Assembly (NCBI GenBank): GCA_029204225.1
Contig: CM055109.1
Location: forward strand, 24,848,723 to 24,912,722
Direction of reading: 5' to 3'
Length of the DNA: 64,000 bases
Source of the DNA: Diphasiastrum complanatum
Taxonomy: Eukaryota > Streptophyta > Lycopodiopsida > Lycopodiales > Lycopodiaceae
The notes under the pieces were generated by a model. The model saw only the letters and a list, made by a program, of their open reading frames with translations. It searched no databases and was not told where the DNA came from. Below are positions 1 to 46,700 of this stretch, in pieces. Numbering within the stretch: the first letter of the stretch is position 1; each line of letters opens with the position of its first letter. The position numbers were made by a program, and so were the translations under genes.

Positions 1-96
1 TACCAAAACCTTTGAGTTTACTAGATGTCGAAGTAAAATGAAAATATCTTTGATAACTAGTACGTTTACAACAAAGTACCCCCAATCAACTTATTA

Positions 97-504
97 TGAA
101 GTTTTTAGCACACTACAAGATCTTTATGGGATGTTGTGTTTGCACGAGAATGATCAAAGAACAGTTTAGTTGAAAAATGCAAGGCAAGAGCACAATGGCA
201 TACCACAGACTGGAAAAACTCTCTACTATGATAGATAGTTATCAGAAATAATTCTAAGTGCTCATTATGGGGAAAAGAGCCTGCTCTCGGGTAGCGAGAT
301 AAAATGATAACCAAAAAACTCGGGTAGAGAATGAGCCCAAAACACCAAAATCTCAATATTCACAATATGGCAAAACAAGCCAAAGTTTTCCTACATCAAT
401 GAGGCTTGAGTTCCTAGAGTGGATTTGCATGGAATGTCCACATCTTCCAGTTAACTCATATATCATAGATCCACATGTAAAACTGCATGCATGGATGTTG
501 CATG
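97..504 (-). repeat. Partial family A copia LTR, left unit 3
   Basis: Corresponds to the last ~405 bp of the complete family A LTR at 25437-26187. It carries a reading frame that recurs in every LTR copy of this family; it is LTR sequence, not a gene. The LTR 5' part and the preceding polypurine tract are missing because of the internal deletion at about 505. Confidence 0.85.
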
Positions 505-1123
505 AGCCGAAATGTTATCATTATTGATAATTGGAAGGTCTTCATCTCCATAACACTTTAGCTCCATAAGTAGCCTCTTGATCCACAAAACTTCCTTAGT
601 TATGATTGTAAGAGCTTTGTACTCAGCTTCACAAAATGACAAGGATATAGGTGCTTGCTTCTTTGATAGCCAAAAAACTAGATTCCCTCCAATGAAAACG
701 GTGTAATCACTTGTGGATATTCTATCCACTCCGTCTCTTGCAAAATACGAGTCTGAAAATGCAACAAAAGTTAGATCGCCTCCTTTATAGATCAATCCAT
801 AGTCTAAGGTAGAAGATACATATCTCAAGATTCTCTTTGCCAATTTCCAATGACATATCTTTGGATCCTACATGTATTGGCTTAATTTGTGCACACTAAA
901 ACTTAGATCAAGCCTAGTGACTCTTAATCAAATAAGAGAGCCAATAAGACTCCTATAAAGAGTGAACTCCTTGAAGGATCTTTTATCCTCCTTTATAGGA
1001 ACTTTTACAATTTGCTCCGTTGGAGTATCCATGCCTTTACAGTTTTCCATTTGAAATTTCTTAAGCATGGAAAGAGCATAACCACTTTGACTTATGAAAG
1101 CTTGACCTTTCCAAAAGTCAATT
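505..1123 (-). pseudogene. Copia RT end/RNase H fragment, left array unit 3
   Basis: Ty1/copia pol fragment covering the end of RT and the first two thirds of RNase H. Visible landmarks are the YRSLIGSLI block, the FSDSYF block that replaces the usual SDSDxAGD, and SLSFCEAEYKAL replacing the SSTEAEY motif. Two stops interrupt it: TGA after GSLI and TAG inside the QYM-DPK block. The frame then runs at about 505 into LTR sequence, giving a chimeric tail (ATSMHAVLHVDL) that is not RNase H. The catalytic Asp/Glu pattern is degraded and the C-terminal third is missing, so no enzyme activity is expected. Confidence 0.9.
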
Positions 1124-2528
1124 TTTAACTCATCACATATTGTAGAGATCCAGCATACGTCATTTTTTGGGTGTTGAGATTCTTTCCACGCATATTCATC
1201 TATGTTTACTTGTTTCTTTGTTTATTTTTTAGTTTTGCAAATGTTTGTTGATTTTTCGGAATCTCACTACATAGGATAGAGTTGGTGTTTTTTGTGGCAA
1301 ACCTTTTAAGGATTACCAGATTTATGACTTAATCTACAAACTTTTGATGACTGAATATATATTTTTAATGGTTTTCATGGGTTTTTATGCATCCCCAAAG
1401 GAATCCTCATAGAAGTCCCAAACCTGCAAATTTTTACATTCATTACTGAAAATGTTTGGTTGTTCTTTAATCTTATTTTGAATGCAGATTGATCTAGGAT
1501 AGGCATCTAAGTGATGGTGCAATTTTCCAGAATCTCAAATTCAACAAGAATTCTTTTAATGAATCTAAATTGATAAGGGAATAGGCCAATTATATCATTA
1601 AACATTAATTACTATTTCATCCTAAATGCCATTCTATTTCATTCTAAATGACTTAGATTAATGGCAAATTAGAGAATGACTGTAAATTACAAAGTGTGTT
1701 GAGCCCTACTTTGTAATAAATTATACATTTAATGTGCAGGTCAGATTTTTTCTACATGATATAGAAGATTAAATGAGCTAACTTTGTTCGATGTATTAAA
1801 ATTGACATCATAAAGGCAAATTCTATTGATTGGGGCCAAACTATTTCGAAGATGTAGATATGTAATGATGTAAACCTAGCCAAGTGACTGGTCATGTTAA
1901 TATCCATGTTATTTCTGAAGCAATGTCTACAAACCTCTATGCACTATAACTAGGTGAGATGTGTCATTTGATGTCATGTTAACAGCCATGTTATTTTTGA
2001 AGCTGCATTTACAAACCGCACTGCAGTATAACTAGCTAAGAGTGTATCATTTGATGCATGAGTTTTACGAGAAGTAATCAATAGTTTGATCTAACTGCTA
2101 TGTAGACTTTCTTCTTATCTTTCTTCCAACACATGTTCAATATGTCAATATTTTCATATTTGCTATTGATTACTATTAATTGAATTCTGATCTCGTAGGG
2201 CAAATATAACATTGTCCAAACAATTATGAAACCTAAGAGACCTACTATAACTAAAAGGTATTTACGTCGATTAGACTGAGGAAATGTAAAAATTATTGAG
2301 GGTCTTTGAAATGTTCAATCTTAGTGCTCTAAGATTCTTGGCTACAATTACCAAAGTAAGATATATACACTTTTAACTCTGAATTGGTATCAATAATGTT
2401 TGTAACAACTATATTGTCGCCAATACGATATTACCAAAACCTTTGAGTTTACTAGATGTCGAAGTAAAACGAAAATATCTGTTGATAACTAGTACGTTTA
2501 CAACAAAGTACCCCCAATCAACTTATTA

Positions 2529-2936
2529 TGAAGTTTTTAGCACACTACAAGATCTTTATGGGATGTTGTGTTTGCACGAGAATGATCAAAGAACAGTTTA
2601 GTTGAAAAATGCAAGGCAAGAGCACAATGGCATACCACAGACTGGAAAAACTCTCTACTATGATAGATAGTTATCAGAAATAATTCTAAGTGCTCATTAT
2701 GGGGGAAAGAGCCTGCTCTCGGGTAGCGAGATAAAATGATAACCAAAAAACTCGGGTAGAGAATGAGCCCAAAACACCAAAATCTCAATATTCACAATAT
2801 GGCAAAACAAGCCAAAGTTTTCCTACATCAATGAGGCTTGAGTTCCTAGAGTGGATTTGCATGGAATGTCCACATCTTCCAGTTAACTCATATATCATAG
2901 ATCCACATGTAAAACTGCATGCATGGATGTTGCATG
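2529..2936 (-). repeat. Partial family A copia LTR, left unit 2
   Basis: Second copy of the truncated LTR. It differs from the first by single bases only, for example in the G run near 2700. Confidence 0.85.
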
Positions 2937-3555
2937 AGCCGAAATGTTATCATTATTGATAATTGGAAGGTCTTCATCTCCATAACACTTTAGCTCCATA
3001 AGTAGCCTCTTGATCCACAAAACTTCCTTAGTTATGATTGTAAGAGCTTTGTACTCAGCTTCACAAAATGACAAGGATATAGGTGCTTGCTTCTTTGATA
3101 GCCAAAAAACTAGATTCCCTCCAATGAAAACGGTGTAATCACTTGTGGATATTCTATCCACTCCGTCTCTTGCAAAATACGAGTCTGAAAATGCAACAAA
3201 AGTTAGATCGCCTCCTTTATAGATCAATCCATAGTCTAAGGTAGAAGATACATATCTCAAGATTCTCTTTGCCAATTTCCAATGACATATCTTTGGATCC
3301 TGCATGTATTGGCTTAATTTGTGCACACTAAAACTTAGATCAAGCCTAGTGACTCTTAATCAAATAAGAGAGCCAATAAGACTCCTATAAAGAGTGAACT
3401 CCTTGAAGGATCTTTTGTCCTCCTTTATAGGAACTTTTACAATTTGCTCCGTTGGAGTATCCATGCCTTTACAGTTTTCCATTTGAAATTTCTTAAGCAT
3501 GGAAAGAGCATAACCACTTTGACTTATGAAAGCTTGACCTTTCCAAAAGTCAATT
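2937..3555 (-). pseudogene. Copia RT end/RNase H fragment, left array unit 2
   Basis: Same fragment as in the neighbouring units, with one informative difference. The TAG stop in the QYM-DPK block is CAG here (near 3302), so the frame reads through that site and opens to 143 codons. The upstream TGA after GSLI remains. The FARDGVDRIST variant (Gly) is shared by all left-array units, while the right-array units have Arg there. A non-functional remnant. Confidence 0.9.
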
Positions 3556-4960
3556 TTTAACTCATCACATATTGTAGAGATCCAGCATACGTCATTTTTT
3601 GGGTGTTGAGATTCTTTCCACGCATATTCATCTATGTTTACTTGTTTCTTTGTTTATTTTTTAGTTTTGCAAATGTTTGTTGATTTTTCGGAATCTCACT
3701 ACATAGGATAGAGTTGGTGTTTTTTGTGGCAAACCTTTTAAGGATTACCAGATTTATGACTTAATCTACAAACTTTTGATGACTGAATATATATTTTTAA
3801 TGGTTTTCATGGGTTTTTATGCATCCCCAAAGGAATCCTCATAGAAGTCCCAAACCTGCAAATTTTTACATTCATTACTGAAAATGTTTGGTTGTTCTTT
3901 AATCTTATTTTGAATGCAGATTGATCTAGGATAGGCATCTAAGTGATGGTGCAATTTTCCAGAATCTCAAATTCAACAAGAATTCTTTTAATGAATCTAA
4001 ATTGATAAGGGAATAGGCCAATTATATCATTAAACATTAATTACTATTTCATCCTAAATGCCATTCTATTTCATTCTAAATGACTTAGATTAATGGCAAA
4101 TTAGAGAATGACTGTAAATTACAAAGTGTGTTGAGCCCTACTTTGTAATAAATTATACATTTAATGTGCAGGTCAGATTTTTTCTACATGATATAGAAGA
4201 TTAAATGAGCTAACTTTGTTCGATGTATTAAAATTGACATCATAAAGGCAAATTCTATTGATTGGGGCCAAACTATTTCGAAGATGTAGATATGTAATGA
4301 TGTAAACCTAGCCAAGTGACTGGTCATGTTAATATCCATGTTATTTCTGAAGCAATGTCTACAAACCTCTATGCACTATAACTAGGTGAGATGTGTCATT
4401 TGATGTCATGTTAACAGCCATGTTATTTTTGAAGCTGCATTTACAAACCGCACTGCAGTATAACTAGCTAAGAGTGTATCATTTGATGCATGAGTTTTAC
4501 GAGAAGTAATCAATAGTTTGATCTAACTGCTATGTAGACTTTCTTCTTATCTTTCTTCCAACACATGTTCAATATGTCAATATTTTCATATTTGCTATTG
4601 ATTACTATTAATTGAATTCTGATCTCGTAGGGCAAATATAACATTGTCCAAACAATTATGAAACCTAAGAGACCTACTATAACTAAAAGGTATTTACGTC
4701 GATTAGACTGAGGAAATGTAAAAATTATTGAGGGTCTTTGAAATGTTCAATCTTAGTGCTCTAAGATTCTTGGCTACAATTACCAAAGTAAGATATATAC
4801 ACTTTTAACTCTGAATTGGTATCAATAATGTTTGTAACAACTATATTGTCGCCAATACGATATTACCAAAACCTTTGAGTTTACTAGATGTCGAAGTAAA
4901 ACGAAAATATCTGTTGATAACTAGTACGTTTACAACAAAGTACCCCCAATCAACTTATTA

Positions 4961-5368
4961 TGAAGTTTTTAGCACACTACAAGATCTTTATGGGATGTTG
5001 TGTTTGCACGAGAATGATCAAAGAACAGTTTAGTTGAAAAATGCAAGGCAAGAGCACAATGGCATACCACAGACTGGAAAAACTCTCTACTATGATAGAT
5101 AGTTATCAGAAATAATTCTAAGTGCTCATTATGGGGGAAAGAGCCTGCTCTCGGGTAGCGAGATAAAATGATAACCAAAAAACTCGGGTAGAGAATGAGC
5201 CCAAAACACCAAAATCTCAATATTCACAATATGGCAAAACAAGCCAAAGTTTTCCTACATCAATGAGGCTTGAGTTCCTAGAGTGGATTTGCATGGAATG
5301 TCCACATCTTCCAGTTAACTCATATATCATAGATCCACATGTAAAACTGCATGCATGGATGTTGCATG
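4961..5368 (-). repeat. Partial family A copia LTR, left unit 1
   Basis: Third copy of the truncated LTR in the left array, beginning at the same copia/LTR deletion junction and ending at the LTR/H boundary. Confidence 0.85.
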
Positions 5369-5987
5369 AGCCGAAATGTTATCATTATTGATAATTGGAA
5401 GGTCTTCATCTCCATAACACTTTAGCTCCATAAGTAGCCTCTTGATCCACAAAACTTCCTTAGTTATGATTGTAAGAGCTTTGTACTCAGCTTCACAAAA
5501 TGACAAGGATATAGGTGCTTGCTTCTTTGATAGCCAAAAAACTAGATTCCCTCCAATGAAAACGGTGTAATCACTTGTGGATATTCTATCCACTCCGTCT
5601 CTTGCAAAATACGAGTCTGAAAATGCAACAAAAGTTAGATCGCCTCCTTTATAGATCAATCCATAGTCTAAGGTAGAAGATACATATCTCAAGATTCTCT
5701 TTGCCAATTTCCAATGACATATCTTTGGATCCTACATGTATTGGCTTAATTTGTGCACACTAAAACTTAGATCAAGCCTAGTGACTCTTAATCAAATAAG
5801 AGAGCCAATAAGACTCCTATAAAGAGTGAACTCCTTGAAGGATCTTTTGTCCTCCTTTATAGGAACTTTTACAATTTGCTCCGTTGGAGTATCCATGCCT
5901 TTACAGTTTTCCATTTGAAATTTCTTAAGCATGGAAAGAGCATAACCACTTTGACTTATGAAAGCTTGACCTTTCCAAAAGTCAATT
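5369..5987 (-). pseudogene. Copia RT end/RNase H fragment, left array unit 1
   Basis: The copy next to the array edge. The copia part starts at 5987 with LKIDFWKGQAF, fused to only 71 bp of H; at 6058 H is replaced by unrelated sequence, so one 102-codon frame (5792-6100) reads across copia, H and unique DNA. It carries the same TGA after GSLI and TAG in the QYM-DPK block as most other units. The adjoining H edge has an ACATG variant near 6001 that is shared with right-array units 2-4, whereas the other left units have ATATG. Confidence 0.88.
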
Positions 5988-6058
5988 TTTAACTCATCAC
6001 ATGTTGTAGAGATCCAGCATACGTCATTTTTTGGGTGTTGAGATTCTTTCCACGCATG

Positions 6059-6971
6059 TTGTCGTTCCACCCAGAAGTCAGGTAATGTCCACATCCCCAT
6101 GACGTCTTAATTAGGTAAGTATGTCTTGCGATTGTTACACGTGCAATCTGCAGGCTAATGGACTGTGTTTGCTTGTCGATTCGAATTACACTGGACATGG
6201 ACTTAGCATAAAACAAATAGCAAATTTGCTGCTGATACTTGCATCAAGTAAAGGATTTTTAGCCAGAGAAACCTAATACAAGAATAGACATGGTCTGTCT
6301 GAAGTGTGCTACTATCTTGTCATGCTCTTAGTTTCTATATGTTTATAGATTGACGTCTTTTGCAATCTAAGTTATAATAAAATTAGAATGTATAAAACCT
6401 TGGCAATACCAGCAATGTCAATGGAGGTTGGAGAATGTCTACGTTATTATGAGCATCTATTTGCGTATATGACCTCAAAACTTATCGTTTTCTTGCTACC
6501 TTTGACAGCATGAAGGAAATCCGAATCTAGACTGGGTTGTCAAACCAACTGGAATCTGGTTACTATACAAAAACGGTAGGGAGGGAAGTTTTGTGCCTTG
6601 GATGTGATGCACAAGTCGACTGTTGACGATGCAAAGGTGATCTTCAACTTTGTGATATTATTTTTGTGCAGTTAAACTATACAACTGTTGTTCTTTTTGT
6701 CCTCAGTGTGCCTTAGGTAGATAGTGTACCATTCAATATTCAATGTTAAGATTCTGAGGTAAGCATTGTAAGAACCAGAAAGCCCAGTTCAATCAAGGTT
6801 AACATCACTATTAGCGTATACAGTAAACACTACTGCCTGCTTGGTACATTCTCTGCATATTGACAATTTTTTTCTTAACTATTTCACCGGCAATGTTGTT
6901 CTAACTTTTTATCTTGTTATGTGCGTATTTCAACCTGGCATACAACTAGACACAATGCCTATATGATAGGT
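6059..6971. other. Single-copy spacer with a possible degraded exon
   Basis: This sequence has no second copy in the window that I can see. At 6509, directly after a pyrimidine-rich stretch ending in CAG (a good plant acceptor shape), the plus strand is open for 32 codons (beginning HEGNPNLDWVV) until a TGA at 6605. One frame over it continues as MHKSTVDDAKVIF to a GT at 6637 that could be a donor. I do not recognise the peptide. It could be a broken exon of an old host gene or chance. The rest looks intron-like (T-rich, no long ORF). Confidence 0.25.
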
Positions 6972-8451
6972 TGTAACATCCCAGTTGTACTTGTCCCCAT
7001 GATTGGATTTGCGCCTGGAGTAAACGAGTATCATCCAAATAATCAAACAAATGATTAGGTTAACGTAATTCTAAGAACATGAGATTCCTATTTAGGTGTT
7101 GGGATTCATTTGTCTTCTCCGAATAAAACAAAAACCTCGTGGTATCATACCACAACGGCCTTTCCATATTGGTGAAATTGTTGGATTGATAAAGGAGATC
7201 TTTTTTATTACAATTTTATCTTCGAGATACAAACAAATGCATTTAGAAGTTTTTTTGCTAGAGAGTTGGTTATTGGTAAGTTCAGTTATGGTGAGATTCG
7301 TTTGTTTCTTTTAACGTTTTATGTTGCAAGAGGTTACATTATCACATCCACTACCACAAAAGTAAATAACATTTTTTACAATTGTACAATTAAGACTGCA
7401 CATAATAGGTGATCTTCTTTTGATGATAATTTCTTACAAAGGGTTTAATAGTTGGCCACTAAATATGCTCGCCATTTTGGAATTTTGGTCAAAAAGAAAC
7501 AAATTTCATAAAGTCAGCTCAAGTTGGCAATGATCCTCAAATATTCACAACTCTTATTCACAATAATAATGATAAGTACTCATAATATTCTAGTAAACAC
7601 GATCAATATTCACAAGTAATCAAGGTCAATATTTATTATAATAACGATTAGCATTCACAATAATCATGATCAATATTAAAGCTATTAACTTTATAGTATT
7701 CACAATTTTAGATAATTAGTGCCAACCATCAAGCATGTAGACTTCAAGACACATCATTGGAAACTCGATCAATTCTTCATCCAATATAGAAAATAATTTG
7801 GATACCTCCTCCATAAGAAGACACTATCATACACAATACAAATAGATCCTCAGAGAAATTCGGTTGTCATTTTTCTAGATTCGAGCATGCAAGGGCACAA
7901 TAAGAAGACAAACATTGTGGAATCAAGTAGTCACCAATGGAAAAAAAATTGTTTGCTTTTTTTCAAGCATGCATGCTACGTTCTTGTTTTCATGAATGCA
8001 GACTCACTTCCATGTTGCATAAGTGAGCCCTCCACCAATGGCTAAATCTAATTGTGAGATTGGAGTATAATCAAATTCACAAATCTAAATTGAAAAGTCA
8101 ATAATTTCATTATTTAAAGCTTAACAAATACATAATACAATAAATTAAGTAAAAAATTTGAAGTTTATCTAACCTATAAATACTTACCAGAACATAGACC
8201 AATGATAAGTCATGCAACTTGGAGATCATTGAAAAATTTCCATGGAAGTTCTTTTGTTATATAGACTTGAATACCCCTAAATGAACCTTGCATCCTTGCT
8301 AAAAAAAAATAAAAACAAGAATTCCACTGAAGGCATGTCAAAAAGAGGTGATAAATATCATTTAAGTATGGGCTTTGGAGAACTAAAGTTGATCACAAAT
8401 CCTTTTAGGCTAATTTAAAGCCAAATAAAAATGCTTGTAAAATTGGAGATT
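6972..8451 (+). repeat. Inverted gypsy LTR copy, left arm of palindrome
   Basis: Begins with TGTAACATCCCAG, a typical start for plant gypsy LTRs. It is the inverted counterpart of 9617-11094, with matching blocks throughout: around 7100-7200, the AT-rich direct repeats at 7550-7680, and 8180-8400. It is clearly diverged from its partner, with small indels, so the pair is not recent. A few matching bases before the TG (CCTATATGATAGG) suggest that some internal element sequence is included. No coding content; short ORFs here are chance. Confidence 0.75.
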
Positions 8452-8533
8452 GGCCTTGCATACACAGTGCACACATTGTTGCAATACATGTTGAATACAT
8501 GACTACCACATTGGAAAGTTCTACAAAGAGGAT

Positions 8534-8878
8534 TTGATGTACATACAGGCCACAAAGCACTATGCTTTGTGTTATGATAGATATTCCAAGAATGCACCAA
8601 TTCTAAATGCCTATTCAGACTCAGATTGGGTTGGAAAAGTGGATATTAGAAAATCCACCTTTGGCTACATGTGCTTTCACGTAGGAGTACCAATTTCATG
8701 GAACAATCAAAAGCAAGAATGCATTTCCTTGTCCGTTATTGAGTCCGAATATGTTGCATCCATCTGTATAGTAAAGGACTCAGATTGGGTTGGAAAAGTG
8801 GATATTAGAAAAACAATCTCCATAAAAACAACTCTGAGGCATTCTACTACTACAAATAACTCAAGTAGTTTGTTGTGA
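8534..8878 (+). pseudogene. Copia RNase H fragment, family E copy 1
   Basis: Reads through the copia RNase H core: AYSDSDWVGKVDIRKSTFGY corresponds to the SDSDxAG-DxRKSTSGY block, then PISWNNQKQ and LSVIESEYVA (the SSTEAEY motif with Glu kept). It has no RT in front and the frame ends soon after. Within it, SDWVGKVDIRK is duplicated: the stretch at 8618-8652 recurs at 8779-8814. Too short for an active domain. Confidence 0.8.
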
Positions 8879-9198
8879 CACAAACTAGTCAGAAAATCAA
8901 GATTCTATGCACCAATTGTGAGGGAGAATACATGTATGACAAAATGTCGGATTATCTATCTTTGTGCAACATGCATCATATGTTCATCATCAGAAGAAAT
9001 GTACAGATGACTTGATCTTGCATACATAGTGAGCACAATGTTGCAATACATGTCAAATCCATGACTATTAGTCAATAATTGTGTTCATCATGTATGCCAT
9101 GATCTACAGATGATCTAATCTTGCATACATAGTGAGTACATTGTTGCAATACATGTCGAACCCATGACTACCACATTGGAAAGTTCTACAAAGAGCAC

Positions 9199-9462
9199 TT
9201 GATGTACATACAAGCCAGAAAGCACTATGCTTTGTGTTATGACAGATATTCCAAGAATGCACCAGTTCTAAATGCCTATTCAAACTCAGATTGGGTTGGA
9301 AAAGTGGATATTACAAAATGCACCTTTGGCTACCTGTGCTTTCACGTAGGAGTACCAATTTCATGGAACAATCAAAAGCAAGAATGCATTTCCTTGTCCG
9401 TTATTGAGTCCGAATATGTTGCATCCCTCTGTATAGTAAAGGACATTATTTGGCTTCGATGA
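9199..9462 (+). pseudogene. Copia RNase H fragment, family E copy 2
   Basis: Second copy of the RNase H core (AYSNSDWVGKVDITKCTFGY, then SVIESEYVA). Unlike copy 1 it has no internal duplication and reads on to DIIWLR before a stop at the edge of the right gypsy LTR arm. The first catalytic Asp position is Asn (SNSD), so it is inactive. Confidence 0.8.
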
Positions 9463-11094
9463 TAACTCCAATATTTGCAATCTCAACCCACTAACTTGCT
9501 AAATACATTTAAGCTAGATTTCATTTTCTTACTCTTGACCTAAATTCATTTTCCAAGAACTCCTATACAAATACTCACTCTCTAGAACACCCTACAAAAA
9601 TGAACTATTATATAAATCAATCTCTAGTTTTACAAGCATTTTTTTTTGGCTTGACATTAGCCTAAATGGCTTGGTGAACTTTAGTTCTCCAAAACCCATA
9701 CTTAAATCATACTTATCACCTCTTTTTTACATGCCTGTAGTGGAATTCGTGTTGTTAATTTTCTTTAGCAAGGATGTGAGGTTCATTTATGGGTATTCAA
9801 GTCTATGTAACAAAAGGACTGCCATAGAAATTCTCCAATGATCTCCAAGGTGCATGGCCTTATCATTGGTCTATGTTATGGTAAGTATTTATAGGTTATA
9901 TGAAATTCAAATTTTTGACTTAATTTATTGTATTATGTTTTTCTTAAGCTTTAACTAATGAAATTATTGACTCTTCAATATATATTTGTGAAGTTGATTA
10001 TATTCCAACATCACAATTAGATTCAGCCATTGGTGGAGGGCTCAATTATCCGAAATGAGAGTGAATCTGCATTAAAGAAAATAAGCACATAGCATAAATG
10101 AAAAAAAGCAAACAATTTTTTTCCGTTGGTCCATGCCTGATTCCACATAGTTCTTCTTCCTATTGTGCCCTTGCATGCTAGAATCTAGAAACAGGACAAC
10201 TGAATTTATTTGAAAATTTATTTGTACTGTTTATGATAGTGTCTTCTTATGGAGGATGTATCCAAGTTGTTTTCTATATTGGATGAAAAATTGATCGAGT
10301 TTGCAATGATGCATCTTGAAGTCTACATGCTTAATGGTTGGCAAAGATTATGTAAAATTGTGAATACTAAAAAGCGAATAGCTTGAATATTAATCAAGAT
10401 TATTGTGAATACTAATCATTATCATAATAAATATTGATCGTGAATACTTGTGAATATTTATTGTGACTACTAAAATATTATGAGTACTTATGATCATGAT
10501 TATTGTAAATAAGAGTTGTGAATATTTGAGGATCATTGCCCACTTGAGCTGCCTTTTTTTAATTTGTTTCTTTTTGACCAAATTTCCAAAATGACGAACA
10601 TTTTTTGTGGACAAATATTAAACTCTTTGTAATAAACTATCATCAGATAAAGATCACCTATTATGTGCAATCTTAACTCTACAACTGTAAAATTTGTTGA
10701 CTACTTTTGTGTTAGTGTAAGCTCTTGCAATTTAAAACATTAAAAGAAACAAAAGAATCTCACCATAACTAAACTTACATATAACTACCTCTTTAGCATG
10801 AAAGCTACTAAATGCCTTTGCCTGAATCTTGAAGATAAAATTGTAATAAAAAAAAAATTCCTTATCAATCCAACAATTTCACCATTATAGAAAGGCCTTT
10901 GATACCACAAGGTTTTTGTTCTATTAGGAGAAGACAAATGAATCCAAACACCCAACCAGGAATCTTGTGTTTTTATAACTACGCAAACCTAATCATTTGT
11001 TTGATTATCTAGATGAGTACTTCTTTACTCAAGGCGTAAATCCAATCATGGTAGTGATAAGATCCTGCCAAACAAGTATAGCTGAGATATTACA
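9463..11094 (-). repeat. Gypsy 3' LTR (minus), right arm of palindrome
   Basis: On the minus strand this starts TGTAATATCTCAG immediately 3' of the gypsy integrase end, where a 3' LTR is expected. It pairs with 6972-8451 as an inverted repeat down to about 9617. The last ~150 bp (9463-9617) has no partner; the end is placed at 9463 because a TTATCA end abuts family E there, but this boundary is uncertain. It includes AT-rich near-repeats with ATTGTGAATA spacing (10390-10540). Confidence 0.65.
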
Positions 11095-20134: not shown

Positions 20135-20268
<134 letters not shown>

Positions 20269-32168: not shown

Positions 32169-32829
32169 AATTGACTTTTGGAAAGGTCAAGCTTTCATAA
32201 GTCAAAGTGGTTATGCTCTTTCCATGCTTAAGAAATTTCAAATGGAAAACTGTAAAGGCATGGATACTCCAACGGAGCAAATTGTAAAAGTTCCTATAAA
32301 GGAGGATAAAAGATCCTTCAAGGAGTTCACTCTTTATAGGAGTCTTATTGGCTCTCTTGTTTGATTAAGAGTCACTAGGCTTGATCTAAGTTTTAGTGTG
32401 CACAAATTAAGCCAATACATGTAGGATCCAAAGATATGTCATTGGAAATTGGCAAAGAGAATCTTGAGATATGTATCTTCTACCTTAGACTATGGATTGA
32501 TCTATAAAGGAGGCGATCTAACTTTTGTTGCATTTTCAGACTCGTATTTTGCAAGAGACAGAGTGGATAGAATATCCACAAGTGATTACACCGTTTTCAT
32601 TGGAGGGAATCCAGTTTTTTGGCTATCAAAGAAGCAAGCACCTATATCCTTGTCATTTTGTGAAGCTGAGTACAAAGCTCTTACAATCATAACTAAGGAA
32701 GTTTTGTGGATCAAGAGGCTACTTATGGAGCTAAAGTGTTATGGAGATAAAGACCTTCCAATTATCAATAATGATAACATTTCGGCTCATGCAACATCCA
32801 TGCATGCAGTTTTACATGTGGATCTATGA
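32169..32829 (+). pseudogene. Truncated RNase H fragment (U3)
   Basis: 126-codon frame 32449-32829 with private changes GGNPVFW and YGDKD relative to the other units. Same two stops upstream. Confidence 0.88.
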
Positions 32830-34600: not shown

Positions 34601-35261
34601 AATTGACTTTTGGAAAGGTCAAGCTTTCATAAGTCAAAGTGGTTATGCTCTTTCCATGCTTAAGAAATTTCAAATGGAAAACTGTAAAGGCATGGATTCT
34701 CCAACGGAGCAAATTGTAAAAGTTCCTATAAAGGAGGATAAAAGATCCTTCAAGGAGTTCACTCTTTATAGGAGTCTTATTGGCTCTCTTATTTGATTAA
34801 GAGTCACTAGGCTTGATCTAAGTTTTAGTGTGCACAAATTAAGCCAATACATGTAGGATCCAAAGATATGTCATTGGAAATTGGCAAAGAGAATCTTGAG
34901 ATATGTATCTTCTACCTTAGACTATGGATTGATCTATAAAGGAGGCGATCTAACTTTTGTTGCATTTTCAGACTCGTATTTTGCAAGAGACAGAGTGGAT
35001 AGAATATCCACAAGTGATTACACCGTTTTCATTGGAGGGAATCTAGTTTTTTGGCTATCAAAGAAGCAAGCACCTATATCCTTGTCATTTTGTGAAGCTG
35101 AGTACAAAGCTCTTACAATCATAACTAAGGAAGTTTTGTGGATCAAGAGGCTACTTATGGAGCTAAAGTGTTATGGAGATGAAGACCTTCCAATTATCAA
35201 TAATGATAACATTTCGGCTCATGCAACATCCATGCATGCAGTTTTACATGTGGATCTATGA
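34601..35261 (+). pseudogene. Truncated RNase H fragment (U4)
   Basis: 126-codon frame 34881-35261 with no private amino-acid change in the open part. RT part shows TGA after GSLI and TAG in QYM-DPK. Confidence 0.88.
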
Positions 35262-37010
35262 TATATGAGTTAACTGGAAGATGTGGACATTCCATGCAAA
35301 TCCACTCTAGGAACTCAAGCCTCATTGATGTAGGAAAACTTTGGCTTGTTTTGCCATATTGTGAATATTGAGATTTTGGTGTTTTGGGCTCATTCTCTAC
35401 CCGAGTTTTTTGGTTATCATTTTATCTCGCTACCCGAGAGCAGGCTCTTTTCCGCATAATGAGCACTTAGAATTATTTCTGATAACTATCTATCATAGTA
35501 GAGAGTTTTTCCAGTCTGTGGTATGCCATTGTGCTCTTGCCTTGCATTTTTCAACTAAACTGTTCTTTGATCATTCTCGTGCAAACACAACATCCCATAA
35601 AGATCTTGTAGTGTGCTAAAAACTTCATAATAAGTTGATTGGGGGTACTTTGTTGTAAACGTACTAGTTATCAACAGATATTTTCGTTTTACTTCGACAT
35701 CTAGTAAACTCAAAGGTTTTGGTAATATCGTATTGGCGACAATATAGTTGTTACAAACATTATTGATACCAATTCAGAGTTAAAAGTGTATATATCTTAC
35801 TTTGGTAATTGTAGCCAAGAATCTTAGAGCACTAAGATTGAACATTTCAAAGACCCTCAATAATTTTTACATTTCCTCGGTCTAATCGACGTAAATACCT
35901 TTTAGTTATAGTAGGTCTCTTAGGTTTCATAATTGTTTGGACAATGTTATATTTGCCCTACGAGATCAGAATTCAATTAATAGTAATCAATAGCAAATAT
36001 GAAAATATTGACATATTGAACATGTGTTGGAAGAAAGATAAGAAGAAAGTCTACATAGCAGTTAGATCAAACTATTGATTACTTCTCGTAAAACTCATAC
36101 ATCAAATGATACACTCTTAGCTAGTTATACTGCAGTGCGGTTTGTAAATGCAGCTTCAAAAATAACATGGCTGTTAACATGACATCAAATGACACATCTC
36201 ACCTAGTTATAGTGCATAGAGGTTTGTAGACATTGCTTCAGAAATAACATGGATATTAACATGACCAGTCACTTGGCTAGGTTTACATCATTACATATCT
36301 ACATCTTCGAAATAGTTTGGCCCCAATCAATAGAATTTGCCTTTATGATGTCAATTTTAATACATCGAACAAAGTTAGCTCATTTAATCTTCTATATCAT
36401 GTAGAAAAAAACTGACCTGCACATTAAATGTATAATTTATTACAAAGTAGGGCTCAACACACTTTAAACTGACCTGCACATTAAATGTATAATTTATTAC
36501 AAAGTAGGGCTCAACACAATTTGTAACTTACAATCATTCTCTAATTTGCCATTAATTTAAGTCATTTAGAATGAAATAGAATGGCATTTACAATGAAATA
36601 GTAATTAATGTTTAATGATATAATTGGCCTATTCCCTTATCAATTTAGATTCATTAAAAGAATTCTTGTTGAATTTGAGATTCTGGAAAATTGCACCATC
36701 ACTTAGATGCCTATCCTAGATCAATTTGCATTCAAAATAAGATTAAAGAACAACCAAACATTTTCAGTAATGAATGTAAAAATTTGCAGGTTTGGGACTT
36801 CTATGAGGATTCCTTTGGGGATGCATAAAAACCCATGAAAACCATTAAGAATCAATATTCAGTCATCAAAAGTTTGTAGATTAAGTCATAAATCTGGTAA
36901 TCCTTAAAAGGTTTGCCACAAAAAACACAAACTCTATCCTATGTAGTGAGATTCCGAAAAATCAACAAACATTTGCAAAACTAGAAAATAAACAAATAAA
37001 CAAGTAAACA
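34601..37010 (+). repeat. Array unit U4, cut by S2
   Basis: Copia 34601-35225, LTR fragment about 35222-35627, H 35628-37010. H carries a private tandem duplication of about 58 bp (AAACTGACCTGCACATTAAA occurs at about 36406 and 36464). The H end is replaced at about 37010 (after AAACAAGTAAACA) by the inverted S2 segment. Confidence 0.88.
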
Positions 37011-37133
37011 CACGAATGTCCAGTGGAAGCCAGCAATGACTGTGCCAGCTGAGCTTCAAAGGTCCTTGCGTGGCAAACGAGGGAATGCACATTCATTTTA
37101 GATTTTTGCAATCTGTAATTTAATATTCCAAAA

Positions 37134-37518
37134 TCACGAGCAAGACTCAGACCATGACACTTTAGCTATGCAATCAAAAGAATTAGCGGAGAAAGAAGGT
37201 TTAGCCTTACATCCAAGTCCAATTTTCACGTCCATATCTGCAGGTTGGTTGCAGGTTGGCTGCCTGCAATGCAATGCCCTCCCTTCTTGTGAAATCACAG
37301 ATATATTTGGTTTGTTCAGTTGCAGTGAGATTATACGACCAACTGAGACCACTGCGCACCACATGGACGCCCAAAGATTTAGTCCCATCTGAACAACTCG
37401 TTGTTATGAAATCATCACATAGGTTTGTTACGCTAAAGGAAGCGTCTAGAGACGAAGTGAAAGACACCTGAAGTAGAAACAAGGTGGCAAACATAGAGAA
37501 TAAGTGAATGATCGCCAT
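37134..37518 (-). pseudogene. SPH-like secreted protein gene copy (S2), probably frameshifted
   Basis: The best preserved of the three copies. ATG at 37518 gives MAIIHLFSMFATLFLLQVSF (signal peptide), then SVTNLCDD, SDGTKSLGVHVV, GLSWSYNLTATEQ and KYICDFTRREG, and stops at 37207. The C-terminal block shared with S1 (ANSFDCIAKVSWSESCS, stop at 37134-37136) is one frame away, separated by a 10-bp tandem duplication (CCAACCTGCA twice) absent from S1. The resemblance to S-protein homologues rests on the LGVHV, SWSYNL and YICDF signatures and small secreted size. It is either a 104-residue protein with an altered tail or a pseudogene; I favour the latter. Confidence 0.45.
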
Positions 37519-37542
37519 AGAGAGAGAGAGAGAGATCATGCG

Positions 37543-37618
<76 letters not shown>

Positions 37619-37625
37619 TGTGTGC
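37519..37625 (-). repeat. GA/CT microsatellite before S2 SPH start
   Basis: Two AG tracts (37521-37535 and 37553-37616) separated by ATCATGCGGCAC, then a short GT run, ending next to the ATG on the minus strand. It is the shorter counterpart of the (CT)65 in S1. Confidence 0.95.
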
Positions 37626-39745
37626 TTTACCTTTGTGTACTTGATTTATAAAGACACTAGAGACGACATTAGTTGGAGGAGAAAAATTTCAAACCAAAAG
37701 CGACGGTACTAAATTCAAAATGAGCAATTCCCCCTAAAACCGGTTCCAGCGGGAGTATTCAAATTAGAAAGCACTAATTCTTGGTTCCTGCTACTTTAGC
37801 CATTAGTGAGAAAAGTACATCAAATAATTTATATTTCTTAGTGTCTACTTGTGTTCTTTACACTAATATTATGATTAAACTATGCATGTTTACTATTGTT
37901 ATGATTTAATCAGAATCAATCACAATTGCATGCATCTTCATGCTCGAGGGCATTATGCCGTAAAGCCCATAATAGCTTTGGCCTATTGAAATAAAGTTCT
38001 AACTTTTACATCGGATCCACTACACTTAGAGCCATGGCTCTAAAATCTAGAAAGCCCTTCATAATAATTACTTAAAGTGTCAACAAATACAATAATATCA
38101 CATGTCAACAAGGCCTAAATAAACACCCGTTCCTTAAAATGATGTTAGGGTTCTTGAGCCAAGTACACAAATGAAAAGGCCTATGCATCTTTTTTCCCTA
38201 CTTATTAAATTCTAAAATGGCACATAGTATATTTAAATAGTACCATATGATTGGGAAGAGTTTCATTGTGACCATATGCTTGTGTGGGAAAGCTTCTAAG
38301 ACTTATCACGTGACCAACATAGAAATTCGTTCCTTCCTTTTTGGATAGGCGGAGGCTACAGTAAAAATAATTAAACAGCAACATCACAATGGGCGACAAG
38401 CCACATTTCTTTTTTGCAGTTCTGGGGTGCACCTAGTTCTATTTGTCAGCAATAGCTTATGGATGCAATTTGTGATTTATGACTCAATTCAATGCACGTG
38501 TCCAACGAGTTGATTCATGTGGTATGATAGTCCTTTTTTAACTCGTCACATATTGTAGAGATCCAACATAGGTCATTTTTTGGGTGTTTAGATTCTTTCC
38601 ACGCATATTCATCTATGTTTACCTATTTATTTGTCTATTTTTTAATTTTGCAAATGTTTGTTGGTTTTTTCGAATCTCACTACATAGGATAGAGTTGGTG
38701 TTTTTTGTGGCCAACCTTTTAACGATTACCAGGTTTATGACTTAATCTTCAAAGTTTAGATTTTAGTTGTTAAGGTTTTTTATATACAAACTTTTGATGA
38801 CTCAATATTAATTTCTAATGGTTTTCATGGGTTTTTATGCATGCCCAAAGGAACCCTCATAGAAGTCCCAAACCTGCAAATTTTTACATTCATTATAGAA
38901 ATTGTTTGATTGTTTTTTAATCTTATTTTAAATGCAAATTGTTCTAGGTTAGGAATCTAAGTGATGGTGCAATTTTCCAGAATCTCAAATTCAACAAGAA
39001 GTATTTTAATGAATCTAAATCGATAAGGGAAAAGGCCAATTATATTATTAAACATTAATTTATATTTCATCCTAAATGCCATTCTATTTCATTGTATATG
39101 ACTTAAATTAATGGCAAATTAGAGAATGATTATAAATTACAAAGTGTGTGGAGCCCTACTTTGTAATAAACTATACATTTAATGTGCAATTTAGATTTTT
39201 TGTATATGATATAGAAGTTTGAACGAGCTAACTTTGTCCGATGTATTAAAATTGACATCGTAAAGGCAAATTCTATTGATTGGGGCCAAACTATTTTGAA
39301 GATGTAGGTACGTAATGATGTAAATCCAACCAAGTGACTGGTCATGTTAACATCCAATGTCTACAAACCTCTATGCACTATAACTAGGTGAGAGTGTGTC
39401 ATTTGATGTCATGTTAACAGCCATGTTATTTTTTATGCTACATCTACAAACCGCTTTGCACTATAAGTAGGTCTTTGCCATGTTCAATCTTAGTGCTCTA
39501 AGATTCTTAGCTACAATTACCAAAGTAAAACATATACACTTCTAACTCTGAATTGGTGTCAATAATGTTTGTGACAAGTATATTAGTACGATATTAGCAA
39601 AACCTTTGATGTTACTAGATGTCAAAGTAAAACCAAAATATTAGTTGATAACCAGTAACTTTTCACATAACCATCCTTTTGACTTTTGTATCATCAAATC
39701 ATATGAATAGCATTGCTTCTCTTTCTTGGAGAATGATAATTATAT

Positions 39746-40846
39746 GCGTAAACCTCATACATCAAATGATACACTCTTAGCTAGTTATACTGCTTTGCGG
39801 TTTGTAAATGCAGCTTAAAAAATAACATGGCTATTAACATGACATCAAATGACACATCTCACCTAGTTATAGTGCATAGAGGTTTGTAGACATTGCTTCA
39901 GAAATAACATGGATATTAACATGACCAGTCACTTGGCTAGGTTTACATCATCACATATCTACATCTTCGAAATAGTTTGGCCCCAATCAATAGAATTTGC
40001 CTTTATGATGTCAATTTTAATACATCGAACAAAGTTAGCTCATTTAATCTTCTATATCATGTAGAAAAAAACTGACCTGCACATTAAATGTATAATTTAT
40101 TACAAAGTAGGGCTCAACACACTTTGTAATTTACAATCATTCTCTAATTTGCCATTAATCTAAGTCATTTAAAATGAAATAGAATGGCATTTAGGATGAA
40201 ATAGTAATTAATGTTTAATGATATAATTGGCCTATTCCCTTATCAATTTAGATTCATTAAAAGAATTCTTGTTGAATTTGAGATTCTGGAAAATTGCACC
40301 ATCACTTAGATGCCTATCCTAGATCAATTTGCATTCAAAATAAGATTAAAGAACAACCAAACATTTTCAGTAATGAATGTAAAAATTTGCAGGTTTGGGA
40401 CTTCTATGAGGATTCCTTTGGGGATGCATAAAAACCCATGAAAACCATTAAAAATCAATATTCAGTCATCAAAAGTTTGTAGATTAAGTCATAAATCTGG
40501 TAATCCTTAAAAGGTTTGCCACAAAAAACACCAACTCTATCCTATGTAGTGAGATTCCGAAAAATCAACAAACATTTGCAAAACTAAAAAATAAACAAAT
40601 AAACAAGTAAACATAGATGAATATGCGTGGAAAGAATCTCAACACCCAAAAAATGACGTATGCTGGATCTCTACAATATGTGATGAGTTAAAAATTGACT
40701 TTTGGAAAGGTCAAGCTTTCATAAGTCAAAGTGGTTATGCTCTTTCCATGCTTAAGAAATTTCAAATGGAAAACTGTAAAGGCATGGATACTCCAACGGA
40801 GCAAATTGTAAAAGTTCCTATAAAGGAGGATAAAAGATCCTTCAAG
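39746..40846 (+). repeat. Partial H and truncated copia (U5a)
   Basis: Plus-oriented H resumes in its middle (CATACATCAAATGATACAC) and runs to 40692, then copia RT 40693-40846 stops abruptly in KRSFK. The sequence then returns to H at 40847 (AACAACCAAACATTTTCAG), repeating 40352-40846: a direct duplication with a 495-bp period. Confidence 0.85.
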
Positions 40847-43618
40847 AACAACCAAACATTTTCAGTAATGAATCTAAAAATTTGCAGGTTTGGGACTTCT
40901 ATGAGGATTCCTTTGGGGATGCATAAAAACCCATGAAAACCATTAAAAATCAATATTCAGTCATCAAAAGTTTGTAGATTAAGTCATAAATCTGGTAATC
41001 CTTAAAAGGTTTGCCACAAAAAACACCAACTCTATCCTGTGTAGTGAGATTCCAAAAAATCAACAAACATTTGCAAAACTAAAAAATAAACAAATAAACA
41101 AGTAAACATAGATGAATATGCGTGGAAAGAATCTCAACACCCAAAAAATGACGTATGCTGGATCTCTACAATATGTGATGAGTTAAAAATTGACTTTTGG
41201 AAAGGTCAAGCTTTCATAAGTCAAAGTGGTTATGCTCTTTCCATGCTTAAGAAATTTCAAATGGAAAACTGTAAAGGCATGGATACTCCAACGGAGCAAA
41301 TTGTAAAAGTTCCTATAAAGGAGGATAAAAGATCCTTCAAGGAGTTCACTCTTTATAGGAGTCTTATTGGCTCTCTTATTTGATTAAGAGTCACTAGGCT
41401 TGATCTAAGTTTTAGTGTGCACAAATTAAGCCAATACATGTAGGATCCAAAGATATGTCATTGGAAATTGGCAAAGAGAATCTTGAGATATGTATCTTCT
41501 ACCTTAGACTATGGATTGATCTATAAAGGAGGCGATCTAACTTTTGTTGCATTTTCAGACTCGTATTTTGCAAGAGACAGAGTGGATAGAATATCCACAA
41601 GTGATTACACCGTTTTCATTGGAGGGAATCTAGTTTTTTGGCTATCAAAGAAGCAAGCACCTATATCCTTGTCATTTTGTGAAGCTGAGTACAAAGCTCT
41701 TACAATCATAACTAAGGAAGTTTTGTGGATCAAGAGGCTACTTATGGAGCTAAAGTGTTATGGAGATGAAGACCTTCCAATTATCAATAATGATAACATT
41801 TCGGCTCATGCAACATCCATGCATGCAGTTTTACATGTGGATCTATGATATATGAGTTAACTGGAAGATGTGGACATTCCATGCAAATCCACTCTAGGAA
41901 CTCAAGCCTCATTGATGTAGGAAAACTTTGGCTTGTTTTGCCATATTGTGAATATTGAGATTTTGGTGTTTTGGGCTTATTCTCTACCCGAGTTTTTTGG
42001 TTATCATTTTATCTCGCTACCCGAGAGCAGGCTCTTTTCCCCATAATGAGCACTTAGAATTATTTCTGATAACTATCTATCATAGTAGAGAGTTTTTCCA
42101 GTCTGTGGTATGCCATTGTGCTCTTGCCTTGCATTTTTCAACTAAACTGTTCTTTGATCATTCTCGTGCAAACACAACATCCCATTAAGATCTTGTAGTG
42201 TGCTAAAAACTTCATAATAAGTTGATTGGGGGTACTTTGTTGTAAACGTACTAGTTATCAAAGATATTTTCGTTTTACTTCGACATCTAGTAAACTCAAA
42301 GGTTTTGGTAATATCGTATTGGCGACAATATAGTTGTTACAAACATTATTGATACCAATTCAGAGTTAAAAGTGTATATATCTTACTTTGGTAATTGTAG
42401 CCAAGAATCTTAGAGCACTAAGATTGAACATTTCAAAGACCCTCAATAATTTTTACATTTCCTCGGTCTAATCGACGTAAATACCTTTTAGTTATAGTAG
42501 GTCTCTTAGGTTTCATAATTGTTTGGACAATGTTATATTTGCCCTACGAGATCAGAATTCAATTAATAGTAATCAATAGCAAATATGAAAATATTGAAGT
42601 ATTGAACATGTGTTGGAAGAAAGATAAGAAGAAAGTCTACATAGCAGTTAGATCAAACTATTGATTACTTCTCGTAAAACTCATACATCAAATGATACAC
42701 TCTTAGCTAGTTATACTGCAGTGCGGTTTGTAAATGCAGCTTCAAAAATAACATGGCTGTTAACATGACATCAAATGACACATCTCACCTAGTTATAGTG
42801 CATAGAGGTTTGTAGACATTGCTTCAGAAATAACATGGATATTAACATGACCAGTCACTTGGCTAGGTTTACATCATTACATATCTACATCTTCGAAATA
42901 GTTTGGCCCCAATCAATAGAATTTGCCTTTATAATGTCAATTTTAATACATCGAACAAAGTTAGCTCATTTAATCTTCTATATCATATAGAAAAAAACTG
43001 ACCTGCACATTAAATGTATAATTTATTACAAAGTAGGGCTCAACACACTTTGTAATTTACAATCATTCTCTAATTTGCCATTAATCTAAGTCATTTAGAA
43101 TGAAATAGAATGGCATTTAGGATGAAATAGTAATTAATGTTTAATGATATAATTGGCCTATTCCCTTATCAATTTAGATTCATTAAAAGAATTCTTGTTG
43201 AATTTGAGATTCTGGAAAATTGCACCATCACTTAGATGCCTATCCTAGATCAATTTGCATTCAAAATAAGATTAAAGAACAACCAAACATTTTCAGTAAT
43301 GAATGTAAAAATTTGCAGGTTTGGGACTTCTATGAGGATTCCTTTGGGGATGCATAAAAACCCATGAAAACCATTAAAAATTAATATTCAGTCATCAAAA
43401 GTTTGTAGATTAAGTCATAAACCTGGTAATCCTTAAAAGGTTTGCAACAAAAAACACCAACTCTATCCTATGTAGTGAGATTCCAAAAAATCAACAAACA
43501 TTTGCAAAATTAAAAAATAAACAAACAAACAAGTAAAAATAGATGAATATGCGTGGAAAGAATCTCAACACCCAAAAAATGACGTATGCTGGATCTCTAC
43601 AATATGTGATGAGTTAAA
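40847..43618 (+). repeat. Array unit U5 with leading duplicated H
   Basis: Duplicated H end 40847-41187, copia 41188-41812, LTR fragment about 41809-42214, H 42215-43618. The unit from 41188 is 2431 bp. The LTR reading frame is shortened here by a CCCATTAAG variant that introduces a stop. Confidence 0.88.
41188..41848 (+). pseudogene. Truncated RNase H fragment (U5)
   Basis: 126-codon frame 41468-41848, same chimeric end as the other deleted units. TGA and TAG stops in the RT part as elsewhere. Confidence 0.88.
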
Positions 43619-43883
43619 AATTGACTTTTGGAAAGGTCAAGCTTTCATAAGTCAAAGTGGTTATGCTCTTTCCATGCTTAAGAAATTTCAAATGGAAAAC
43701 TGTAAAGGCATATATACTCCAACGGAGGAAATTGTAAAAGTTCCTATAAAAGAGGATATAAGATCCTTCAAGGAGTTGACTCTTTATAGGAGTCTTATTG
43801 GCTCTCTTATTTGATTAAGAGTCACTAGGCCTGATCTAAGTCTTAGTGTGCACAAATTAAGCCAATACATGTAGGATCCATAT
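43619..43883 (+). pseudogene. Truncated copia RT end (U6), array terminus
   Basis: Only about 265 bp of the copia fragment remains, ending at GTAGGATCCA, where it joins the SPH-like coding sequence of S3 in opposite orientation. It carries private changes (PTEEIVKV, DIRSFKELTL), so this terminal unit has diverged more than the internal ones. Confidence 0.85.
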
Positions 43884-43957
43884 CTTAGAGACGAAGCGAA
43901 AGACAACTGAAGTAGAAACAAGCTGGCAAACATAGAGAATAAGTGAATGATCGCCAT
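43884..43957 (-). pseudogene. SPH-like gene, signal-peptide part only (S3)
   Basis: MAIIHLFSMFASLFLLQLSF plus a few codons, then cut by the junction with copia sequence. A GA tract (43959-44001) precedes the ATG as in S1 and S2. A remnant. Confidence 0.6.
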
Positions 43958-46700
43958 AGAGAGAGAGAGAGAGAGAGAGAGCGAGGGGGAGAGAGAGAGA
44001 CACACATAGAGCGTGCTTTATAAAGACACTATATACGACACTAGTTGGAGGAGAAAAATTTCAAACCAAAAGCGACGACGCTGAATTCGAAATGAGTAAT
44101 TCCCCGTAAAACCAGTTCCAGCGGGAGTACCCATGTATTCGAATTAGAAAGCACTAATTCTTAGTTCCTGCTATTTTAGCCATTAGCAAGAAAAGTAAAT
44201 CAAATAATTTACATTTTTTAGTGTCTACTTGTGTTCTTTACACTAAAATAATAATTAAACTATGCATGTTTACTATTGTTATGATTTAATCACAATCAAT
44301 CACAATTGCATGCATCCTCATGCTCGAGGGCATTATGCCCGTAAAGCCCATAATAGCCTTGGCCTAATAAAAGAAAGTTCTAACTTTTACATCGGATCCA
44401 CTGCACTTAGAGCCATGGCCCTAAAATCTAGAAAGCCCTTGATAATTATTATCTAAAGTGGGTGAATTCAATGTCATGAAAATCAACCTCACTAAACATC
44501 TCATTCCCATTCACGTTGTAATCATATATCGTAGCATGGCTGATAACTTGATCCAAAGCATGTACTCATCATAGCCATGAATCACTCTTTAGCATGCATT
44601 GCATGTCATCAATCTATCATAGCCTACCTATGACTAATGATGCCTTGATCTCCAACCAATGATAATATTACATTTAGTGTTATATCAAGAGATGGCAACG
44701 TATATTAGCAGATTATCACAAGAAGTACACTAATATCGCATGTCAACAAATACAATAATATCACATGTCAACAAGGCTTAGATAAATACTCGTTCCTTAC
44801 AATGATGTTAGGGTTCTTGAGCCAAGTACACAAATGAAATGGCCTATGCATCTTTTTTCCCTACTTATTAAATTCTAAAATGGCACATAGCATATTTAGA
44901 TAGTACCATATGATTGGGAAGAGTTTCATTATGACGATATGCTTGTGTGGGAAAGCTTCTAAGACTTATCACGTGACCAACATAGAAATTTGTTCCTTCT
45001 TTTTTGGATAGGGTGGGGGTTATAGTAAAAATAATTAAACAACAACATCACAACAGGCAACAAGCCACATTTCTTTTTTGCAGTTTTCGGGTGCACCTAG
45101 TTCTATTTGTTTGCAATAGCTTATGGATGCAATTTGTGATTTATGCTAAAATTCACTGCACAAGTTAATTCATGTGGTATGATAGTCATTTGTTAACTAA
45201 TCACAGATTGTAGACATCCAGCATAGGTCATGTTTTGGGTGTTTAGATTCTTTCCATGCATATTCATCTATGTTTACTTGTTTATTTGTTTATTTTTTCC
45301 TTTTGCAAATGTTTGTTGATTTTTTGGAATCTCACTACATAGGGTAGAGTTGGTGTTTTTTGTGGCAAACCTTTTAAGGATTACCAGGTTTATGACTTAA
45401 TCTTCAAAGTTTAGTTTTGAGTTGTTAAGGTTTAGGAAATACAAACTTTTGATGACTCAATATTAATTTTTAATGGTTTTCATGGGTTTTTATGCATCCC
45501 CAAAGGAATCCTCATAGAAGTCCCAAACCTGCAATTTTTTACATTCATTTTGTTTGATTGTTCTTTAATCTTATTTTGAATGCAAATTGTTCTAGGATAG
45601 GCATCGAAGTGATGGTGCAAGTTTGCAGAATCTCAAATTCAACAAGAATTCTTTTAATGAATCTAAATTGAAAAGGGAATAGGCCAATTATATCATCAAA
45701 CATTAATTACTATTTCATCCTAAATGCCATTCTATTTCATTCTAAATGACTTGAATTAATGGCAAATTAGAGAATGATTGTAAATTACAAAGTGTGTGGA
45801 GCCCTACTTTGTAATAAATTATACATTTAATGTGTAGTTTGGATTTTTTGTATATGATATAGAAGTTTAAATGAGCTAACTTTGTCCGATGTATTAAAAT
45901 TGACATCGTAAAGGCAAATTCTATTAATTGGGGCCAAACTATTTCGAAGATATAGATATGTAATGATGTAAACCCAGCCAAGTGACTGGTCATGTTAATA
46001 TCCATGTTATTTTTGAAGCAATGTCTACAAACCTCTATGCACTATAACTAGGTAAGAGTGTGTCATTTGATGTCATGTTAACAACCATGTTATTTTTGAA
46101 GCTGCATCTACAAACCGCTCTGCACTATAGCTAGCTAAGAGTGTGTCATTTGATGTATGAGTTTTACGAGAAGTAAGAGATAGTTTGATCTATCTGCTAT
46201 GTAGACTTTCTTCTTATCTTTCTTCCAACACATGTTCAATATGTCAGTATTTTCATATTTGTTATTGATTACTATCAATTGAATTCTGATCTAATAGGGC
46301 AACTATAACATTGTCCAAACAGTTACCAAACCTAAGAGACCGACTATAACTAAAAGGTATTTACATTGATCAGACCAAGGAAATGTAAAAATTATTGAGT
46401 GTCTTTGCCATGTTCAGTCTTAGTGCTCTAAGATTCTTGGCTACAATTACCAAAGTAAAACATATACACTTCTAACTCTGAATTGGTATCAATAATGTTT
46501 GTAACAACTATATTGTCGCCAGTACAATAATACCAGAGCCTTTGTTGTTACTAGATGTCAAAGTAAAACCAAAATATCAATTGATAACCAGTACCTTTTC
46601 ACATAACCATCCTTTTGTGTTTTGTATCATCAAATCATATGAATAGCATTCCTTCTCTTTCTTAGAGAATGATAATTATATATACTATAATACTATATAT
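43884..46700 (-). repeat. H-plus-SPH segment, copy S3 (inverted)
   Basis: Minus order: H (46700-45190), SPH upstream region (45189-44005), GA/CT tract, N-terminal part of the SPH-like gene. It keeps the upstream segment that S2 lost (44455-44740). It faces the copia array tail to tail and ends where the family B flank begins. Confidence 0.85.

Follow-up and report, generated by a model that had tools for sequence, protein, structure and literature searches.

A head-to-tail array of a chimeric copia unit beside its putative founder in Diphasiastrum complanatum

Tandem arrays derived from retrotransposons are already known, and plants provide the closest described systems for the locus reported here. 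In maize, CRM1TR and CRM4TR are tandem repeats from the long terminal repeat (LTR)/untranslated region part of an LTR retrotransposon; the authors propose that these repeats arose through illegitimate recombination and grew through gene conversion, and they leave room for unequal exchange and rolling circle (PMC3648361). Ogre-derived satellites of Lathyrus sativus begin as short arrays downstream of gag-pol that expand locally (PMC7004042). In the subtelomeric heterochromatin of rye, transposable elements are co-amplified, and microhomology-driven repair at motifs of 8-12 nt is proposed (PMC4857426); a review covers retrotransposon-derived tandem arrays and the same mechanism classes. Here we describe a stretch of 64,000 nucleotides from Diphasiastrum complanatum (GCA_029204225.1, contig CM055109.1, positions 24,848,723 to 24,912,722, forward strand; hereafter the window), in which a 2431-bp chimera of a copia fragment and a second dispersed repeat recurs head to tail on both strands.

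The repeats of rye form far larger arrays with short monomers. In the case reportedly treated by McGurk and Barbash 2018, a double transposable-element insertion is the satellite substrate: the first dimer is said to come from two insertions, and the tandem copies to expand by unequal exchange. In contrast, the first dimer here would stem from a non-homologous joint between copia and the second repeat. Like CRM1TR and CRM4TR, the array consists of tandem repeats out of an LTR retrotransposon part; unlike those repeats, which belong to Ty3/gypsy centromeric elements in or near centromeres (PMC3648361), it is copia-type, only small arrays are seen, and its unit combines RNase H with another dispersed repeat. 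As in the Ogre-derived satellites, parent domains lie upstream of the array in fixed order (PMC7004042), whereas the Ogre satellites start from short subrepeats within the element and the 3-kb duplication here extends past the element into its neighbour. The rye repeats are similar in that element sequence is amplified near tandem repeats, and the excerpt of that report shows no chimeric 2.4-kb unit (PMC4857426). No copia/second-repeat chimera of this sort was found among the titles and abstract openings returned by a literature search of partial coverage. What is new is a modest example with its founder visible and unusually clear traces of its origin. With head-to-tail copies of identified retrotransposon sequence, the array is a retrotransposon-derived tandem array, or young satellite.

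Self-BLAST of the window and mapping to a reference unit U (31353-33783, plus strand, 2431 bp; unit positions are written U1-U2431) place the unit head to tail on both strands, bearing out the initial annotation, made from the sequence alone, which had described two oppositely oriented tandem arrays of one chimeric unit. The minus-strand array (1-6060), open at the window edge, holds 2.49 unit-equivalents, in agreement with the earlier count of at least 2.4; the plus-strand array (24577-43880) holds 6.34 rather than about seven. Together they make ~8.8 unit-equivalents, with 18.5 kb between the minus-strand and plus-strand blocks. Self-BLAST aligned 1-6060 with 35724-29666 at 99.03% identity and 1-3625 with 2432-6057 at 99.81%; three mononucleotide-shuffled windows gave no non-self matches. 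The plus array is not continuous. Its blocks map to U at 24577-25204, 25780-28212, 28788-28918, 28923-37010, 39747-40846 and 40841-43880, broken by 575-bp stretches (25205-25779 and 28213-28787) and by an opposite-strand repeat (37057-39745), and a 495-bp internal duplication lies at 40349-41341 in the last segment, 39747-43880. The unit length of ~2.43 kb given at first holds for the 2431-bp form of the later units and not for the first plus-array period of 3009 bp, and the end placed at 46700 took in a repeat copy (43886-46699) outside the array. The units are as follows.

1-1940, minus strand: minus-array unit m3
1941-4372, minus strand: minus-array unit m2
4373-6060, minus strand: innermost minus-array unit m1, inner edge at U744 by BLAST and at U744-747 by eye
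24577-26775, plus strand: p0, long-form unit that starts the plus array on its left side, running on from the parental copia to its left
26776-28918, plus strand: p1, long form (native 575 bp at 28213-28787), without U1566-2431
28923-36215, plus strand: p2, p3 and p4, three complete short-form units with mutual identity of 98.8-99.2%
36216-37010, plus strand: p5, partial unit U1-737 with a 57-bp tandem duplication at 36409-36522
39747-40846, plus strand: p6a, in the last array segment
40841-42801, plus strand: p6b, in the last array segment
42802-43880, plus strand: p7, in the last array segment

Inspection of the unit reveals a copia part at U ~813-1868, in the order reverse transcriptase (RT) tail, RNase H and LTR part, and a part termed H formed by U1870-2431 with U1-824. 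Copia domains were located by tblastn with six separate pieces of the protein of an intact neighbouring copia, to which the RT tail and RNase H of the unit are 48-66% identical. RT-tail matches occur in p1-p4, p6a, p6b, p7 and m1-m3. Except for p6a, which stops short of RNase H, these units also have RNase H matches; p0 falls within the parental match. U1503-1831 matches 62387-62055 at 84-85% identity and is taken as LTR because this match precedes a related gag on the minus strand. Rfam at the gathering threshold and ARAGORN gave no matches, and a comparison of the 194-aa RNase H open reading frame (ORF) with prokaryote and viral contigs returned 29 and 7 pattern matches, respectively, none of them confirmed, an outcome to be expected for plant DNA, which the copia and gypsy content of the window suggests. 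Since the unit is not bounded by LTRs and its coding part is truncated and carries stops, it would be expected to spread by recombination rather than transposition. The possibility that the array represents dispersed LTR-bounded copia copies was rejected: each unit has one LTR part, the units are contiguous and their joints are H/copia and copia/H.

At the left edge of the plus array, the copia domains run in the order gag-integrase-RT-RNase H across the array edge at 24577 (tblastn). This edge is therefore not an insertion edge, since the rest of the source element adjoins it leftward.

20955-25420, plus strand: degraded parental copia, gag to RNase H in several frames with stops
21103-21685, plus strand: parental gag (tblastn)
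22318-23333, plus strand: parental integrase region (tblastn)
23968-24701, plus strand: parental RT (tblastn)
24711-25412, plus strand: parental RNase H (tblastn)
25849-26175, plus strand: parental 3' LTR match, to 62385-62055

No 5' LTR of the parental copia was found; similarity to a related copia starts at 20955, and 20955-22551 is 92% identical to 61406-59811. The latter lies in another, minus-strand member of the parental copia family (59811-62387), LTR then gag.

All ten H/copia joints of the array, seven plus and three minus, have one 21-mer in common (nine exact, one with a single mismatch). Native copia departs from it at 4 bases (24573), and native H, in the copy at 37057-39745, at 6 (38544). 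Because all ten are the same, the array began with one fusion. At the joint, native copia and the H copy at 43886-46699 have in common only TGACT and nearby A's, as judged by eye. The 575 bp at 25205-25779 (the RNase H C-terminus and beyond) are present in p0 and p1 only, and the junction sequences have CATGC at both ends of the deletion. The stretch is native and the short form a deletion, because the RNase H match at 24711-25412 passes through 25204. For the same reason, an insertion of the 575 bp with a 5-bp target duplication was rejected: the RNase H match continues through the stretch. Units p5, p6a and p7 end before the deletion site.

H is the interior of a dispersed 2.7-3.4-kb repeat, here H-long, of which the window holds three further copies.

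17272-20705, plus strand: H-long copy A (H-A), with a (CT)65 tract at 20138-20267
37057-39745, minus strand: H-long copy C (H-C), interrupting the plus array and preceded by 46 bp of other sequence (37011-37056)
43886-46699, minus strand: H-long copy D (H-D), most like array H, cut short at 43886

Identity to array H, with gaps uncounted and stray 45-bp matches in some of the comparisons, is 90.6-95.5% for H-D, 88.5-91.7% for H-C and 84.2-88.8% for H-A. These copies reject single-copy host DNA as the source of H and make the term host flank, applied to it originally, misleading. The one H-long ORF checked, of 139 aa in H-C, matched no Pfam family. Except for 13-bp matches, the first 98 bp of H-long occur nowhere else in the window than in these three copies. 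All three copies also have a CT/AG dinucleotide tract at the same place, with differing lengths (20138-20267, 37519-37616 and 43958-44000).

Comparison of the units reveals a graded pattern of likeness. Stray 45-bp matches in some projected units were removed before identities and variants were counted, and the counts of identity and variant order omit positions 744-749 of m1 and, in p5, the surroundings of the 57-bp duplication (positions 181-299). All 21 pairs among p2, p3, p4, p6b, m1, m2 and m3 are 98.7-99.9% identical, whereas p0 and p1, at the left edge, share 95.6-98.0% identity with the remaining units; p5, p6a and p7 are intermediate (96.9-99.2% to the rest, p1 aside). Variants at U910, U949 and U1029 are common to p0, p1 and p7 and absent from every other unit that spans these positions; at U620, p1 and p7 have the same state as H-C and H-D. 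In concerted evolution, unequal exchange or conversion is expected to leave old types at the margins of an array and a younger one in its interior, and the array has this pattern: homogenised inside and diverged at its edges, as in a young satellite. The copies within the 57-bp and 495-bp duplications are 98-99% identical, which shows duplication within the array. Relative to the unit majority, C>T or G>A changes number 6 on 48 CG sites, 7 on 65 CHG and 36 on 695 CHH, a context that, on few events, hints at methylation.

Our preferred reading, with a probability of roughly 0.7, is a tandem duplication in situ, followed by unequal exchange or conversion and, later, by inversion or inverted copying. 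A copia would have adjoined an H-long copy 98 bp inside the left end of the repeat, probably by inserting there; such an insertion should place the first 98 bp of H-long to the left of the copia, and these would have been lost along with the copia 5' end. A single event would then have joined an H site (U ~815-824) to the copia RT tail (24577) and thereby created a tandem duplication whose period is 3009 bp. The shared joint and the parent in place are the basis for this founding event, and it is plausible that short microhomology aided the repair. One unit may next have lost 575 bp between the CATGC direct repeats to give the 2431-bp form. Unequal exchange or gene conversion would have multiplied this form and made its copies partly uniform, as the pattern of likeness indicates, with p0 and p1, older and more diverged, remaining at the left edge. 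The minus block would have arisen later, either through inverted copying of array units or through an inversion that broke near U740. Tandem amplification of a copia fragment with its flank, described from the start as a potential early satellite, is a good fit to the data.

The two forms of the last step are about equally probable, and each on its own falls somewhat short of even odds. The sequence suggests arrays linked by inversion: a contiguous array would have been cut near U737-747 and ~31 kb at 6061-37010 flipped, making p5 and m1 halves of one unit. U737 closes the plus block (37010), and U744-747 forms the inner end of the minus block (6060), so that the two edges correspond reciprocally to within 10 bp of 2431. 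When the inversion is undone, H-A, the array H of both main blocks, H-C and H-D share orientation, and the missing right end of array H falls beyond the left window edge. However, an edge match within 10 bp among the four possible pairs arose by chance in 3.5% of 200,000 trials, and the match was seen first and tested afterwards. In addition, the flip leaves 39747-43880 in the wrong orientation, so that a second event is needed, and U801 puts m1 with p2-p4 while U955 and U1667 point the opposite way. Inverted copying would instead have taken the minus block from the plus array by template switch or ectopic conversion, after which it expanded by itself. Consistent with this, m1-m3 are 99.7-99.9% alike compared with 98.7-99.6% to p2-p4 and p6b, pointing to expansion or homogenisation after separation, and BLAST of the flank 6061-6996 gave no match to the plus-array flanks; the near-match of U737 and U744, however, is then explained by chance alone. 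A 10-mer common to both flanks, reached in 8 of 2000 mononucleotide shuffles, was set aside, since the inversion model does not predict it. As regards the putative hairpin transcripts and small RNAs raised in the initial annotation, the inverted ~99% arms lie some 23 kb or more apart (6060 to 28923). Inverted H pairs at shorter distance have identities of 88-94%; one of them, 42244-43407 with 46598-45440, reaches 93% with ~2 kb in between.

Several observations weigh against in-situ growth followed by inversion or inverted copying. The unit ORFs of 194 aa and 134 aa matched no Pfam family. The microhomology at the joint amounts to five exact bases, for which chance is possible. The expected right end, in which array H continues past U824 into the remaining H-long in plus orientation, is not in the window, and both right-hand H-long copies (H-C and H-D) are inverted. 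Homogenisation appears only partial, since p5, p6a and p7 are less alike. Old-type variants like those of p0 and p1 recur in p7, which adjoins H-D; they would fit a right array edge at 43880 and are awkward for inversion as the sole later event. The order of variants also shows no preference for inversion, with 46 state changes in the inversion order versus 46 with the minus block reversed, and 50 and 46 when the minus block is placed before the plus block. Finally, a circle recombined into the source locus would give the same joint and left edge.

This last route, in which circular DNA of RT tail-RNase H-LTR-H was end-joined at the same joint, multiplied by rolling circle and recombined into the source copia, would supply an array ready formed and account for one joint in all ten copies. 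Extrachromosomal circular DNA from plant satellite repeats and LTR retrotransposons has been reported (PMC2543021, PMC9324142). A fresh rolling-circle insert should nonetheless have a uniform start, and the two period forms, the graded divergence of p0 and p1 from the rest and the 57- and 495-bp duplications argue for stepwise growth in place, which makes a circular origin unlikely. Unequal crossing-over and a reintegrated circle had both been offered as growth routes in the initial annotation; given the parent copia at the left edge and ten identical joints, unequal crossing-over (or conversion) is the likelier, with the understanding that a recombined circle would look alike. Near-identical tandem and inverted blocks are a classic trouble spot, but units repeated or inverted by the assembler are highly improbable: simple mis-joins would not create divergence of 0.1-4% between copies, changes specific to single units, two forms of the period and distinct edges. 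Copy number and block orientation in the assembly could nonetheless be wrong.

The origins of satellites are usually guessed from old, homogenised arrays. Here, parent copia, joint and intermediate unit forms stand together, such that the order of steps is readable and can be checked in alleles or sister species. The array also shows that two unrelated repeats can make up one chimeric tandem unit, fused at an internal point and not at element ends. We tentatively entertain, as a somewhat doubtful proposition, that a satellite has been caught in its first steps, with founder, joint, long-form units, deletion and an array-splitting first inversion all readable in 46 kb.

The window contains further elements. 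A nearly intact copia at 46978-53052 encodes gag, integrase and RT domains (Pfam) in a single uninterrupted ORF of 1322 aa (48434-52402). Its 299-bp LTR parts have one differing site, and directly after the 5' LTR part, at 47277, lies TGGTATCAGAGC, which we take to be a primer-binding-like motif. The ORF has 8 CG observed versus 143 expected (ratio 0.06), whereas 500 synonymous-codon shuffles average 58 and never fall below 41; a second copia at 54383-56874 also has a CG ratio of 0.06, and the window 0.32. A young CG-avoiding copia of this kind could escape CG methylation. At 6997-11051, a 1.46-kb inverted repeat (6997-8452 with 11051-9618, 85%) surrounds a repeated RNase H-like copia fragment (8455-9444), and pieces related to this structure, 93-96% alike, follow the intact copia at 53053-53697. 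A minus-strand fragment with RT and RNase H at 12626-14020 (Pfam RVT_1, RT_RNaseH_2 and RT_RNaseH) is presumably gypsy-type.

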